This document shows positions 26,795-32,951 of a stretch of 64,000 nucleotides of DNA, piece after piece. The notes under the pieces were generated by a model, which worked only from the letters and a program-made list of their open reading frames with translations, did no database searches and had not been told where the DNA came from. The DNA comes from Armatimonadota bacterium. Its GTDB lineage: Bacteria; Armatimonadota; Chthonomonadetes; Chthonomonadales; CAJBBX01. Location of the stretch: the NCBI GenBank assembly GCA_026392115.1, contig JAPLCQ010000038.1, positions 20,853 through 84,852 of the forward strand, given 5' to 3'. Position 1 is the stretch's first letter. Each line of letters starts with the position of its first letter. A program made the translations under genes and the position numbers.

Positions 26795-27790
26795 ATGACG
26801 ACCAACACCAAGCAAGACGACCGACAAGCTGGAACGATCTCCCAGGAGGCAGGAATGGACTGTGACAGAGTGTGGGATCTGCTCTCCGTCTACGCTGACG
26901 GCGAGGCTGATGCCAACGAGACGGCGATTGTCGAAGAGCACATCGCGTGCTGCACGACCTGCGCCCGAGACCTCGAGTTCATGCGGGGCACTTCCGCCGC
27001 CGTGCAGGCCGAGACGCAGGTCGCTCCCCCGGCTGCCATGCGGCAGGCCATCCTCAACGCGACGATCTACAAGCCGACCATGCAGGAGCGCTTCGCTTCC
27101 GCGATCCGCCGCTCCTTCTCCCAGTCGCCCGTACGGTACGGCGCACTGGCCACCGCCGGCGCCGCGGCTGCCCTGACGCTCACCGCGATCCGCCCCGGCT
27201 TCACCCCCGGCCTCATCCCGGCAACCGGTGTTGCGCAGACGCAGGTTGCCGCTGACGCGGAGCCAGGCGTGCTCGAGGGCCTGGGTCTTGAGGATCTGAT
27301 GCCGAACTCAATGCCCGGCATGGCCTCTCGCCAGTCCGGAACCGGCGCCGTTCTCCGCACCCGCCGGACCGCGGTGGCAGCCGCAGGACGCGACGGATCG
27401 ACGCTCATGAGCCGCACCGCCGCGGTCCGCAACGGCCACCCGATGCCGAGTGTGAGCATTCCGGCCGGCACCGGCCTGGATGACGTCGACGTCGACGAGA
27501 GCGCCGCCGGACAGGACGAGATGGCCGCAGTCGCCTCGCCCGCCATGACCGCCGAGCCCTCTCTTGAGCCCGCCGCAGCCCCTGTGAGCGTGCCCACGGT
27601 GACCGCATCGATGGCCCCGCGCATCGTTTTGGCGGCATCCACCGGCGCCGTGAACGCAGGGCAGATCGCCACGCTGGCCGACATGAGGAAGAGCCTGAAC
27701 CGCAGGGCCAACAGTCTGAGCGCGGCCGATCTCCGGCAGCAGGCTCGCGACGGCCAGGTTCGGATCGATCTGATCAAGGGAAGCTTCTAG
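26795..27790 (+). CDS. zf-HC2 (anti-sigma-like) protein with long low-complexity C-terminus
   Basis: MDCDRVWDLLSVYADGEADANETAIVEEHIACCTTCARDLEFMR (H-x3-C-x2-C); Ala-rich segment, then ~180 aa disordered-looking tail; CGGAGG SD. Confidence 0.75.
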   Translation: MTTNTKQDDRQAGTISQEAGMDCDRVWDLLSVYADGEADANETAIVEEHIACCTTCARDLEFMRGTSAAVQAETQVAPPAAMRQAILNATIYKPTMQERFASAIRRSFSQSPVRYGALATAGAAAALTLTAIRPGFTPGLIPATGVAQTQVAADAEPGVLEGLGLEDLMPNSMPGMASRQSGTGAVLRTRRTAVAAAGRDGSTLMSRTAAVRNGHPMPSVSIPAGTGLDDVDVDESAAGQDEMAAVASPAMTAEPSLEPAAAPVSVPTVTASMAPRIVLAASTGAVNAGQIATLADMRKSLNRRANSLSAADLRQQARDGQVRIDLIKGSF

Positions 27791-27846
27791 TTAGCTGCCC
27801 CAGGCTTAGCCCGTTGAGCCTTTCGACCTCGGACGGAGGTTAGACA

Positions 27847-30800
27847 ATGACCAAGAGCATCATCAACAACGCAAACAGGATCCTGGCAGCGGCCCTGGTC
27901 CTTGGAGCCATTCAGACTGCGAGCGCCCAGAGCGCGTCGCGGTTGTTTGACTTTAAGGCTGAGCTCGCCCGGACTTCTCTGAGCCTCGGCCAGAGCCTGT
28001 CCTACATCGACGCAGCCGGGAAGCCCACAGGGCAGACCCGCCTGTTCGTCGAAGCGTTGCGCGGCAACGGAACTCGCTCCGGCTACATGCTGTCTCACGG
28101 CGGCGTGGTGCCCGGCTCCCTGCGAGTGTCTGTAGGCGCGCGGTCCCTCAAGGCGGAGACCGACTACACGGTCGACTTCGCTGGTGGTGGCCTGATGTTC
28201 GTAGAGCCCGTCCGTCCCTACGACAGCATCAGCGTCTCTTACCAGTACGTCGACGGTTACGACGCCTCCCGCAACGTCACCGGCACTCCCGGCGTCGGCC
28301 TGAAGCTTCGCGGCTCAGCGCTGAACCTCGGCTATGCCGTCTCGTCGCTTAACGGCGTCAGCTACACCACCTACGGCCTGGCTCACAACAGCAAGGTTGG
28401 ATCCGGCTCTACGCTCTCCGGACTGCTCTACTTCAGCTCCGGCGCAGCCAGCAACAACAACGCCATCGGTCGCACCAACCAGAACGGCGCCATTCAGCGC
28501 CCCAGCAACGCCAAGCCCGCCAATGATCGCTTGCTCGTCCAGAACTTCCAGGGCAAGTCCGGCAAGGCTACGTTCAACGCTTCGTACCAGGACGTCGGCA
28601 CCCAGTTCGCAGGCTTCAGCGCCATGCGCAACAACCTGACGTCGAACCCCGTAGAGGCCCAGCAGCTCGCGGCGCTCGAGAAGGAGCGCGGCATCAAGCG
28701 CATGAGCTTCGGCGGAGGCCTGGCCACGGGCAAGACCTCGAACCTAGGGCTGAACTGGGACAACATCGGCGACGGCGCCGGCAGTATCGTCAAGCAGGGG
28801 CTGAACTACACCGCGGGCGCTCTGAAGATGCAGTATCAGGGGCAGACCGTTGGTACCAGCTTCCAGCGCTTCGGCAACCTCCGCGACGGAGAGGCCGCCC
28901 AGTGGGCGCGCGAGCGCGGCGTCAGCCGCTCCAACATCTCGCTGGCCTACGCCCCCGCCAAGGGAGGCGCCCTGAGCCTGTCGCAGAACAAGATAGGTGA
29001 TCGGACCGGCGGCCTGAACGGCCTCGGGTTCAACTTCACCGGCAAGAATCAGAACCTCAGCTACAGCTCGAGCAAGGCCGACCAGACCTTCTCGCGCCTC
29101 AACGATCTGAGCGACGCCGACCGGACGGCCATCGCCCTCGGCATCCGCCGGCAGTTCAACGCGACGGCAACCGCAGGCGAAGTCACCGCGAAGGACAAAG
29201 AGCAGGTTGCCCGAGAGGCCGGCCTGTCCCGCACACGCTGGAGCTACGGCTCGGCGCTGGGCAAGCAGTCCACGCTCGGCTTCAACCAGTTCTCGGTCAG
29301 CGACGGTAGCGGCAATATTCAGCGCACGACCCTGAATCTCGCCGGCAAGGGCTTCTCGCTCAACTACCTGGACCAGAACATCTCGCAGAGCTTCGGCAAG
29401 CTGGGCTCCCTGAACGACTTCGAGCGCAGCCAGTACAACAACGAGCTCGGCATGCGGCGTACCGCATTGGGGATGAATCTGACTCTGAGTCGCTCTTCAA
29501 CCCTCAGCTACAACCAGTCCTCGGCTTCGGATTCGGCCGGCTCTATGTCCCGCCAGTCCCTCGCCTACGCCGCCAAGGGCTTTGACGCTCGCGTCAACCT
29601 GGGCACGACGGCTTCTTCTTACGCGCGTGCACGCGATATGGCGTATTTGAACGACGCCGAGCGCGCCGCCATCGAGGGCGAGCGGGGCTTCCGCCGCATG
29701 GACTTCGCGGCGAACCTGACCTCGATCCGCAACCTGACCCTGAGCACCACGGTCTACAACGCCGTGAACTCCGAGCTTTCGCTGACCCGGAACAACTACC
29801 GCCACGCCGCCGGCTGGACCCCGAACAAGGCCACCCGGATCAACTACCTGAGCGACGGTAACTCCTCGACGAAGTCGGGAATCGTGGCCAACGGCACCGC
29901 CCACCAGCTGGTCACCATCGACCAGCAGATGAAGCGCGGCATGAAGTGGAACGCCTTCCGCGACGAGGTGACCACCACCGCCAACGGCGCCACCGCCGGC
30001 CGCACGACCACCAACTTCCTGCACTTCGAGACCGACCGCAGCAAGGCCAACAACCTGGTCGCAGAGACCAAGCGCATCGGCTTCAGCGACGGCCGCTTCG
30101 AGAACACCACCGTGGTCGACATGAACTGGCAGGCCTCCAAGACCATGGGCTTCCACCTGAACCGCAATGCGGTGGATCGTGGTCGCGAGGCTTCGGCAGC
30201 CACCAGCATGCTGGATTGGAAGTGGCAGGCAAGCAAGACCCTGAGCCTGACCGGCCAGATGGGCGCGACGCAGACCAACACCGGTGCGGGTACCACCTTC
30301 CGCGGCCTGACCCTCACCACGCCGGTCTCCGGCATGTTCAGCCTCGCCGGCACCTACTCCGAGGCCGTCGTGCAGGGCAGGAACAATCGCTCGGTGGCGG
30401 GTCTCTCCATCTCGTCGCTCAAGCCCATGAACATCCTGGGCCTCCGCAACGCGTCCGTCACGCTCGGCTACGCCGGTGTGCACGACCAGCAGAAGCAGCA
30501 GACCGAGAACGTCAGCGCCAAGGTGCAGGGCCTTCTCGGCAAGAACACCGTAGCCCTCGAGTACGGCGGCGCTCTGGACGCCAAGGGCAACTCCGGCGTC
30601 TCCCGCGGCTTCAGCTTCGTCAGCGACAGCAACGAAAAGCTCCCGGTTCACTTCAACGTCGCCTACAAGGCACGCAACGTCAACCGCGGCAACATCCAGC
30701 TTGTTCGCAACTACAACCTGGCCCTGCGTCTCTCCAAGACCTCCAGCCTCAGCTACGCCTACAACTCGCTGCCTGAGGATGGCGCACTGAACATGCAGCA

Positions 30801-31143
30801 GCTCAAGAGCTCCGGCTTCACGTTCAAGCAGGCCCTGAACGCCGGTACCGCCCTGTCGCTCGACTACACCACCAGCGAGAACCTGGCCAATCGGCAGGCC
30901 ACCCGCAAGCTCGGCGCATCCCTCATCGGCAAGCTCGACAAGGTTGCATCGTTCCAGGCCGGCTACAGCGTCAACGTCAGCAACATCAACGGCCAGAACG
31001 TCAATGCCCATGCCGTCAGCCTTGGCTACGACCGCCGCATCGATGCCGACCACTCCGTGGCCTTCAACACCGTCTACACGATGAACATGGCCGGCCGCAC
31101 CAACGATGTCCAGGCCAACGTTGAGTTCAAGACCCGCTTCTAA
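27847..31143 (+). CDS. 1098-aa exported repeat-containing protein, probable outer-membrane beta-barrel
   Basis: Signal peptide MTKSIINNANRILAAALVLGAIQTASAQ; dense alternating polar/hydrophobic strands; C-terminal ...NDVQANVEFKTRF with terminal Phe, as in outer-membrane barrel signals. Confidence 0.65.
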   Translation: MTKSIINNANRILAAALVLGAIQTASAQSASRLFDFKAELARTSLSLGQSLSYIDAAGKPTGQTRLFVEALRGNGTRSGYMLSHGGVVPGSLRVSVGARSLKAETDYTVDFAGGGLMFVEPVRPYDSISVSYQYVDGYDASRNVTGTPGVGLKLRGSALNLGYAVSSLNGVSYTTYGLAHNSKVGSGSTLSGLLYFSSGAASNNNAIGRTNQNGAIQRPSNAKPANDRLLVQNFQGKSGKATFNASYQDVGTQFAGFSAMRNNLTSNPVEAQQLAALEKERGIKRMSFGGGLATGKTSNLGLNWDNIGDGAGSIVKQGLNYTAGALKMQYQGQTVGTSFQRFGNLRDGEAAQWARERGVSRSNISLAYAPAKGGALSLSQNKIGDRTGGLNGLGFNFTGKNQNLSYSSSKADQTFSRLNDLSDADRTAIALGIRRQFNATATAGEVTAKDKEQVAREAGLSRTRWSYGSALGKQSTLGFNQFSVSDGSGNIQRTTLNLAGKGFSLNYLDQNISQSFGKLGSLNDFERSQYNNELGMRRTALGMNLTLSRSSTLSYNQSSASDSAGSMSRQSLAYAAKGFDARVNLGTTASSYARARDMAYLNDAERAAIEGERGFRRMDFAANLTSIRNLTLSTTVYNAVNSELSLTRNNYRHAAGWTPNKATRINYLSDGNSSTKSGIVANGTAHQLVTIDQQMKRGMKWNAFRDEVTTTANGATAGRTTTNFLHFETDRSKANNLVAETKRIGFSDGRFENTTVVDMNWQASKTMGFHLNRNAVDRGREASAATSMLDWKWQASKTLSLTGQMGATQTNTGAGTTFRGLTLTTPVSGMFSLAGTYSEAVVQGRNNRSVAGLSISSLKPMNILGLRNASVTLGYAGVHDQQKQQTENVSAKVQGLLGKNTVALEYGGALDAKGNSGVSRGFSFVSDSNEKLPVHFNVAYKARNVNRGNIQLVRNYNLALRLSKTSSLSYAYNSLPEDGALNMQQLKSSGFTFKQALNAGTALSLDYTTSENLANRQATRKLGASLIGKLDKVASFQAGYSVNVSNINGQNVNAHAVSLGYDRRIDADHSVAFNTVYTMNMAGRTNDVQANVEFKTRF
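28580..29760 (+). repeat. about five degenerate protein repeats inside the barrel-like protein
   Basis: Recurring block: (S)F/Y-x2-L-x2-L-x-D-x-E-R...ER/EL-G-x-R/S-R followed by strand pairs and D-x-x-G-S/G motifs; ERGIKR, ERGVSR, EAGLSR, ELGMRR, ERGFRR. Confidence 0.65.
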
Positions 31144-31426: not shown

Positions 31427-32401
31427 GTGGCGTTCGACCATGTAGCCGCCGGCCGCCGGGTGATGTTGCAGGAAGCCGCGGCCATCACCAGCATGGCGGA
31501 AGCTCTGGGAAGCGGATTCGCACAAGCCGCCGAGCTGCTTCTAGCATGCAAGGGCCGGATCGTAACCACAGGGATCGGCAAGGCGGGCGCCGTGGCACGT
31601 AAGGCCGCAGCCACGCTTGCCTCCACCGGGACGCCCGCCCTCTACCTGCATCCCGCCGAAGGCGTCCACGGCGACCTCGGGGCGGTGACACCCGACGATG
31701 TGGTGCTGGCGCTCTCCTACAGCGGCGAGAGCGATGAGGTCTCGCGGATCCTGCCGACCCTCCAGCGGATAGGCGCCCCCATCATCGCCGTGACAGGCAA
31801 CGAGGCGTCCACTCTGGGCGCTGCCGCGGTCCTGGCGCTCGACGTCTCCGTTGAGCGTGAGGCGTGCCCGCTGGGTCTTGCTCCCACGACATCCGCAGTA
31901 GCCATGCTCTCCATGTGCGACGCGCTGGCTATGGCCGTCATGGAGGCGCGCGGCTTCACCCGCGAGGACTTTGCGCTTTACCATCCGGCGGGCGCGCTGG
32001 GCCGCAGGCTCACGCTACGGGTGGCGGATGTCATGCGGTCGGGCGACCAGATGGCGGTGACCGGCCAGAACGTGCTGCTCCGCGACGCCCTCTTCGCCAT
32101 CACGCGAGCCCATGCCGGTGCGGCCTTCCTTATTGATGACGAGGGGAAACTGACGGGACTTCTGACCGACGGTGATGTGCGGCGCGTGATTCTGGCCGAC
32201 CGCGACGCCCTGGACCGCCCGGCGCATACTATTATGAATAGGTCGCCGCTCACCATCGCCGGCAATATCCTGGCTGCCGACGCGCTCTCCATCCTACAGG
32301 AGAGCCCAAAGCGCCCCGGCGAGGCGCCTGTCATCGATGCCGCCGGCCGGCCTGTCGGTCTTCTAATGATCAAGGACTTGCTCCGCTGTGGAATCGTCTA
32401 G
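31427..32401 (+). CDS. kdsD: D-arabinose 5-phosphate isomerase (KpsF/GutQ family, SIS plus CBS)
   Basis: CKGRIVTTGIGKAGAVARKAAATLASTGTPALYLHPAEGVHGDLGAVTPDDVVLALSYSGESDE, FALYHPAGALGRRL, CBS-like C-terminus. Confidence 0.94.
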   Translation: MAFDHVAAGRRVMLQEAAAITSMAEALGSGFAQAAELLLACKGRIVTTGIGKAGAVARKAAATLASTGTPALYLHPAEGVHGDLGAVTPDDVVLALSYSGESDEVSRILPTLQRIGAPIIAVTGNEASTLGAAAVLALDVSVEREACPLGLAPTTSAVAMLSMCDALAMAVMEARGFTREDFALYHPAGALGRRLTLRVADVMRSGDQMAVTGQNVLLRDALFAITRAHAGAAFLIDDEGKLTGLLTDGDVRRVILADRDALDRPAHTIMNRSPLTIAGNILAADALSILQESPKRPGEAPVIDAAGRPVGLLMIKDLLRCGIV

Positions 32402-32951
32402 GTGCTACCTCTTGCCCGAGCGCTTGGTCGCGCGGGCAGCGTCCATTCGGCTACTCGCCATGGATGTCGACGGCGTCCTGACCGATGGGCGCATCATCCA
32501 CGTCGGGGATGACGAGGCCCGGTGTTTCCACGCGCATGATGGGATGGGCCTGCGGCTGGCGGCCGGGGCCGGCCTGCGGATCGCCTGGATCACCGGCCGG
32601 CAGTCGCGCTCGGTGCAGCGGCGCGCCGCCGACCTGGGGGTTGATGACCTCGTGGAGAACTGCGCGCTCAAGGCCGAGGCTCTTCGCCGCCTGTGCGATG
32701 CTCATGGATGCCAGCTGGTCGAGGCTGCCTACATCGGCGATGATGTGAACGACATGCCCGCCCTTTGCATCGCGGGCCTCAGCTTCGCTCCCGCCGACGC
32801 GGCGCCGTGGGTTCGACAGCATGTGGACCACATCACGCCTGCGGGCGGCGGGTACGGGGCTGTGCGCCAGGTCTGCGAGGGCATCATCTCGGCTCAATGC
32901 GGCATGGAGGCGGCCGTGGAGGCCTATCTTCGCGTAGGCGCCGGCAACTGA
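32388..32951 (+). CDS. kdsC: 3-deoxy-D-manno-octulosonate 8-phosphate phosphatase-like HAD protein
   Basis: RLLAMDVDGVLTDGRIIH, HAHDGMGLRLAAGAGLRIAWITGRQSRSVQRRAADLG, YIGDDVNDMPAL; overlaps kdsD. Confidence 0.9.
   Translation: MESSRCYLLPERLVARAASIRLLAMDVDGVLTDGRIIHVGDDEARCFHAHDGMGLRLAAGAGLRIAWITGRQSRSVQRRAADLGVDDLVENCALKAEALRRLCDAHGCQLVEAAYIGDDVNDMPALCIAGLSFAPADAAPWVRQHVDHITPAGGGYGAVRQVCEGIISAQCGMEAAVEAYLRVGAGN

Follow-up and report, generated by a model that had tools for sequence, protein, structure and literature searches.

Lying within a 64,000-nucleotide (nt) stretch of DNA from an Armatimonadota bacterium, referred to here as the window, are two adjacent genes, the first encoding a zf-HC2 anti-sigma-like membrane protein and the second a large exported protein predicted to form a giant outer-membrane (OM) barrel. 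The two are separated by exactly 56 nt (27791–27846) containing no terminator-like site and no unusual fold (z = −0.89), in line with the gap of about 56 nt without a hairpin read in the original prediction, which was made from the letters of the window. No description of this zf–barrel pair was found in open-licence full text. Beyond what had been predicted, the most informative features are the phenylalanine-terminated tail of the zf-HC2 protein, the promoter of the operon and a sigma–bamA operon located elsewhere in the genome.

The genome carrying the window (5.72 Mb, order Chthonomonadales, in the little-known phylum Armatimonadota) has relatives whose metagenome-assembled genomes include loci with a barrel 95–96% identical. 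As other genera of this family keep 44–50% identity over nearly the full length, conservation of the barrel is far beyond chance, and its profile matches 177 of 291 Armatimonadota genomes. Directly 5′ of the barrel, in the same orientation, is a zf-HC2-type gene in the 52 loci examined, which span at least 15 families (f1, f2, f3, f6, f8, f13, f16, f18, f19, f28, f29, f30, f35, f36 and f37, with the window in f1); in family f14 (Fimbriimonas-like or Fimbriimonadaceae-like) the barrel is present without it. A comparison of neighbourhoods, proposed with the original prediction, thus finds the pair conserved in most of the phylum and lost in few lineages only.

The zf-HC2 protein matches PF13490 with 33.4 bits against a curated Pfam cut-off of 22.2 (E 4.9e-8), retains the H-x3-C-x2-C ligands and, in the AlphaFold2 (AF2) model, has a helical zf domain with a pLDDT of about 90 over residues 20–70. 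All 52 barrel-paired zf proteins share a single hydrophobic segment followed by 165–277 residues to the C terminus; this arm is disordered in the AF2 model of the window protein and poorly conserved in sequence among orthologues. No FecR or STN-like periplasmic domain was found in it, zf-HC2 alone being significant in Pfam and the arm disordered by AF2. Across an alignment of 24 orthologues the mean column identity is 21%, with four invariant columns that include the terminal Phe and do not comprise the zinc ligands. Orthologues of family f3 have lost these ligands and retained the fold motif and terminal Phe, with the anti-sigma-like helices and a PP..LR..I motif still conserved; as non-zinc anti-sigma domains are common (PMC7406223), this loss is compatible with function. 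Two orthologues of family f16 (L056 7404–8450 and L057 3903–4925) carry the zf-HC2 domain twice in tandem.

No sigma gene is present in the neighbourhood of the zf-HC2 gene within the window, as had been noted at the outset. A neighbouring cognate sigma gene is customary for zf-HC2 (ZAS) proteins and not strictly defining: among 36 sampled zf-HC2 proteins of relatives, 27 have a sigma gene within the locus. In the window genome six zf-HC2 genes adjoin a sigma gene and two, the window gene and one on contig C21, do not. A sigma gene concealed near the operon was rejected, with none in f1 and pairs of extracytoplasmic function (ECF) sigma and zf genes 3–4 kb away in G024 (L037) and G049 (L047) that are not conserved; one divergent ECF/zf pair adjoins the operon in L110/L245, again not a conserved arrangement.

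Terminating the arm is a short tail that sets the barrel-paired zf proteins apart. Phe is the last residue in 47 of 52 and Tyr in one (terminal aromatic residue in 48 of 52), compared with Phe in none of 38 sigma-adjacent zf-HC2 proteins (Fisher p 3e-20, a value that is indicative only and overstates independence because the loci are related) and a background frequency of 5/251. The 36-protein sample was collected by PF13490 search, with the tail ignored in selection; in it, terminal Phe occurs in 0/26 cleanly read sigma-adjacent proteins (L145 left out) and in 8/9 sigma-less ones. The non-aromatic tails come from four genomes, three of f28 and one of f29. The f28 loci (L226–L228), where the pair is retained and the zf protein has neither zinc ligands nor aromatic tail, form a natural test of the role of the tail.

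Over the 52 tails, hydrophobic residues occupy position −1 in 100%, −5 in 90%, −6 in 94%, −8 in 88% and −10 in 65%; positions −3 and −4 are weakly hydrophobic (29% and 15%), and −2, −7, −9, −11 and −12 almost never carry a hydrophobic residue. With the partner barrels aligned at the final Phe, hydrophobic residues occupy −1 in 100%, −5 in 100%, −7 in 89% and −11 in 87%, and −3 in only 43%. Judged by residue pattern, the zf tail is OM protein (OMP)-like over its last five residues, strand-like before them, and non-canonical as an Escherichia coli β-signal, the consensus of which is ζ-x-G-x-x-Φ-x-Φ (PMC10945584). AF2 gives no structure for the tail by itself.

Four further zf-HC2 proteins without a sigma neighbour (L147 3867–4874, L148 3575–4780, L149 9648–10718 and L150 4879–5862) form a second Phe-tailed class, with tails resembling LDFIKTRF, and their genes lie 5′ of exported proteins of 440–634 residues quite unlike the giant barrel. 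In L147, L149 and L150 these neighbours end in an SHSHPL-type sequence and are followed by zinc-uptake-like genes (ZnuA/ABC, znuABC-like). The occurrence of this class beside other exported proteins points to the tail as a device of general use, not specific to the barrel.

Upstream of the zf gene is an ECF-type promoter. The form TGYAAC-N16-TGTC is exact in 17 of 32 loci and near-exact in most other f1–f3 loci, and the strict form TGYAAC-N16-TGTCWC occurs once per genome in G000 (the window genome), G001, G002, G008, G013 and G015, always at the zf–barrel operon. The relaxed form TGYAAC-N16-YGTC, sought within 300 nt, was found at one non-zf region among 422 upstream regions. Related ECF-type elements precede the zf genes of f13, f16, f19 and f8. 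A conserved TGAAAC-N~16-ATCTAA is present in f6 (L109, L111, L113, L114, L116 and L117), preceded by an ACAAAT...TTGTCAAA-like element.

Among the 24 Sigma70_r2 genes of the window genome, one of ECF type is located directly 5′ of the sole bamA and has no zf-HC2 gene alongside (L276, G000:C116, 12582–15074), in the order lipA-like, tamB-like, ECF, bamA. This adjacency is kept across Armatimonadota in 30/30 loci and in 19/19 further ones, mostly from other families (49/49 in all, leaving out a twentieth further locus at a contig edge); the arrangement was noted at L276, L168–L197 and L206–L225, and several genomes have tamB upstream of it and a Skp-like gene downstream. In family f3 the sigma–bamA promoter, TGTAACAW-N14-YGTC, belongs to the same rare class as the zf promoter: in 12 f3 genomes this form has 42 occurrences, against 23 for a reversed control, at 1–6 per genome, marking sigma–bamA in 11/12 genomes and the zf–barrel gene in 3/12, and no other sigma gene with it was seen among 30 loci read. 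In G040 (f13) the promoters of the two operons are nearly identical (TGCAACTTTTC...CCGGTTGTCTGA and TGAAACTTTTC...CGGGTTGTCTAA). It is mainly because of these shared promoters in f3 and G040, an indirect argument, that we propose the bamA-linked sigma factor as the partner of the zf protein. A shared promoter was rejected for f6, f8, f19 and f16, in which the zf promoters are ECF-like and the regions upstream of sigma–bamA give no match.

The 1,098-residue protein has a signal-peptide-like N terminus and ends in NVEFKTRF. It has no Pfam match at E ≤ 1, TonB-dependent receptors included, and its profile matches no PDB sequence, SprA included; identity over the full length with a known family was rejected on both searches, in keeping with the earlier failure to recognise a named family. 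In an AF2 model built on an alignment of 16 homologues (pLDDT 79.3), about 50 antiparallel strands span residues 157–1096, and the only helices are short ones that follow residues 250, 335, 411, 512 and 588, one after every four strands; because the pTM is low (0.48), closure of the barrel and the exact number of strands are not established. Foldseek against the PDB returned LptD, SprA, TonB receptors, porins and VDAC, as well as ApoB, with TM scores normalised to the query of 0.26 for SprA and at best 0.17 for LptD. From this model and the Foldseek matches the protein is predicted to be an OM barrel, among the largest predicted, which supports the original reading of a probable barrel; a soluble non-barrel fold was not obtained.

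The repeats of this protein, also anticipated together with its export and its C-terminal Phe, form five units of 72–101 residues with pairwise z-scores of up to 14 against shuffles (one pair of ten fails), and their number varies among barrel homologues. From strand parity at both ends of the model, the helical insertions would face the cell exterior. N-terminal residues 41–138 are 31% identical to part of a 1,011-codon frame at G000:C56:41223. Encoded at L061 6157–9138 (G000:C56) is a 993-residue exported barrel-like protein ending in DADLGLNF, which has only the N-terminal β domain in common with the giant barrel.

Table 1 Coordinates of the operon features within the window.
Feature	Positions	Strand	Basis
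ECF-type promoter TGCAAC-N16-TGTC, 48 nt 5′ of zf-HC2 start codon	26721..26746	+	Conserved before orthologues in f1, f2, f3, f13
zf-HC2 anti-sigma-like membrane protein, 331 aa	26795..27790	+	PF13490 E 4.9e-8; AF2; orthologues 5′ of barrel in 52 loci
zf-HC2 domain, residues 23–57	26861..26965	+	PF13490 match
Single transmembrane helix, ~residues 115–131	27137..27187	+	Hydropathy maximum in 52/52 orthologues; AF2 helix 115–131, low confidence
Disordered periplasmic arm, ~residues 136–293	27200..27673	+	AF2 pLDDT <50 over residues 136–288
C-terminal tail, strand-like pattern, terminal Phe (...QVRIDLIKGSF)	27749..27787	+	Terminal Phe contrast, barrel-paired versus sigma-adjacent
Giant OM barrel (predicted), 1098 aa, ~50 strands	27847..31143	+	AF2; Foldseek; profile in 177/291 genomes
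N-terminal small β domain, residues 66–145	28042..28281	+	Weak AF2 strands; also present in further barrel-like exported proteins encoded by same genomes
Five repeat units, residues 257–660 (short helical segment and four strands each)	28615..29826	+	Self-alignment; AF2

The operon is flanked by a purN-like gene and a DUF4380-like gene on the other strand. Directly 3′ of the barrel (31427–32951), and kept in near relatives, are KdsD-like (SIS plus CBS) and KdsC-like (HAD) genes, which from their domain composition presumably serve the synthesis of 3-deoxy-D-manno-octulosonic acid (KDO) and lipopolysaccharide.

Our tentative interpretation, for which we see somewhat short of an even chance, is that the zf–barrel pair is an OM assembly reporter, a disconnected sigma/anti-sigma system with an OMP-like tail; the architecture, its conservation, the promoter and the linkage of a sigma gene to bamA are observed, and the identity of the sigma factor, the receptor of the tail and the direction of the signal are what we infer. 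The zf domain would keep an ECF sigma factor, most likely the one linked to bamA, at the inner membrane, and the disordered arm, which appears long enough to reach the OM, would span the periplasm. At the OM the Phe tail may be captured through β-strand addition, either by the β-barrel assembly machinery (BAM) or by the partner barrel. The occupancy of the tail would change with assembly load or damage and decide whether the anti-sigma stays stable or is proteolysed, and the activity of the sigma factor (towards bamA, skp and the barrel) would thus be matched to assembly load. A more far-reaching form, which we offer with greater reserve, is a phylum-wide envelope-stress circuit, in which an anti-sigma bearing its own OMP-like tail on a periplasm-spanning arm would let an ECF sigma factor encoded with bamA read BAM or the barrel as a gauge of assembly capacity. 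The module for envelope sensing or envelope building suggested originally is in part supported, the points in its favour being the predicted barrel, the joint conservation of the pair and the ECF-type promoter.

Several observations weigh against an assembly reporter. In f1, the window's own family, sigma–bamA lies behind a tamB-like gene and has no matching promoter up to that gene; the f6 zf promoter has a different −10 element (ATCTAA), not found at the f6 sigma gene; and sigma–bamA persists also in genomes without the zf–barrel pair. The f28 genomes and the one f29 genome retain the pair with no aromatic tail. Positions −1 and −5 are common to the zf tail and the barrels, with the inner register of the tail shifted by one, and as a strict E. 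coli β-signal the tail was rejected, position −3 being hydrophobic in just the minority given above and −6 being hydrophobic, not Gly.

In a dedicated pair resembling cell-surface signalling (CSS), the tail would dock only on the adjacent barrel, which it might complete or plug, and the anti-sigma would serve an unlinked ECF sigma factor that mainly targets this operon, with no role for BAM. Wherever these zf proteins keep the tail the barrel gene is adjacent, the strict promoter is exclusive to the zf–barrel operon in the six genomes, and in CSS the C-terminal domain of the anti-sigma contacts the OM transducer (PMC11637429); however, the tail also occurs in the second Phe-tailed class, beside quite different exported proteins, so it is not specific to this barrel, and the f3 promoter class is common to sigma–bamA, and we consider so exclusive a partnership rather unlikely. 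Decidedly unlikely, in our judgement, is a role of the tail as a PDZ ligand carried by the substrate itself: a site-1 protease of the HtrA, DegS or Ctp type would bind the free Phe C terminus and start regulated intramembrane proteolysis of the anti-sigma, much as DegS or AlgW is activated by OMP tails. Such a ligand would account for a free hydrophobic C terminus on a membrane anti-sigma-like protein, and follows the DegS/AlgW logic in which OMP C termini are read by PDZ domains, that of AlgW binding the C termini of OMPs and MucE (PMC8545111). A PDZ ligand needs 3–4 residues, whereas the tail is conserved to −10 and strand-like; position −3 is not consistently hydrophobic, and the Phe tail is missing from membrane zf-HC2 proteins that adjoin a sigma gene in the same genomes.

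The zf protein might also have ceased to be an anti-sigma and act as a structural tether that anchors the giant barrel, or else the OM, to the inner membrane. The long arm, conserved tail, missing sigma neighbour and loss of zinc ligands in f3 would all suit a tether, but the helices and PP..LR..I motif persist without zinc, a situation known from other anti-sigma domains that lack it (PMC7406223), the ECF promoter is still present, and the arm is disordered and poorly conserved, so that this role seems very unlikely to us.

Set beside known systems, the proposed reporter works like CSS or E. coli sigmaE–RseA–DegS and belongs to neither, as the domains that define CSS are missing and the anti-sigma and gene order differ from sigmaE–RseA. 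With CSS (FecI–FecR–FecA and FoxI–FoxR–FoxA) the window pair shares an OM barrel gene alongside and an ECF promoter; it has no FecR/STN domain, no TonB-dependent receptor match and no sigma gene in the operon, and its anti-sigma-like protein has, in the periplasm, a disordered part and a short Phe tail in place of the folded STN-like domain of CSS. Common to sigmaE–RseA–DegS are an ECF sigma factor linked to BAM genes, here directly 5′ of bamA, and a presumed signal in the form of an OMP C-terminal motif. In Armatimonadota, however, the anti-sigma-like protein itself bears the OMP-like motif, the sigma gene lies apart from the anti-sigma gene, and zf-HC2 replaces RseA_N. Class I (ZAS, PF13490) anti-sigma factors likewise have an H-x3-C-x2-C zf-HC2 domain and a single transmembrane helix, unlike the window protein in their adjacent sigma gene and in lacking its disordered arm of 165–277 residues with an aromatic end. 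The barrel resembles SprA, the type 9 translocon barrel (36 strands), and LptD in being a very large OM barrel with Foldseek matches to them, and differs in having no sequence relationship to either, about 50 predicted strands, and four-strand repeats of species-variable number.

The arrangement appears to be a hitherto unrecognised means by which OM assembly is reported to the genes. Sensing of OMP assembly is understood mainly in proteobacteria; if the assembly-reporter reading is true, Armatimonadota place a client-like signal on the anti-sigma and the sigma factor with bamA, and BAM occupancy would be a direct transcriptional input. That reading is open to specific tests in the cultured genus Chthonomonas, and the four-strand repeats, varying in number between species, offer a natural experiment on barrel growth.

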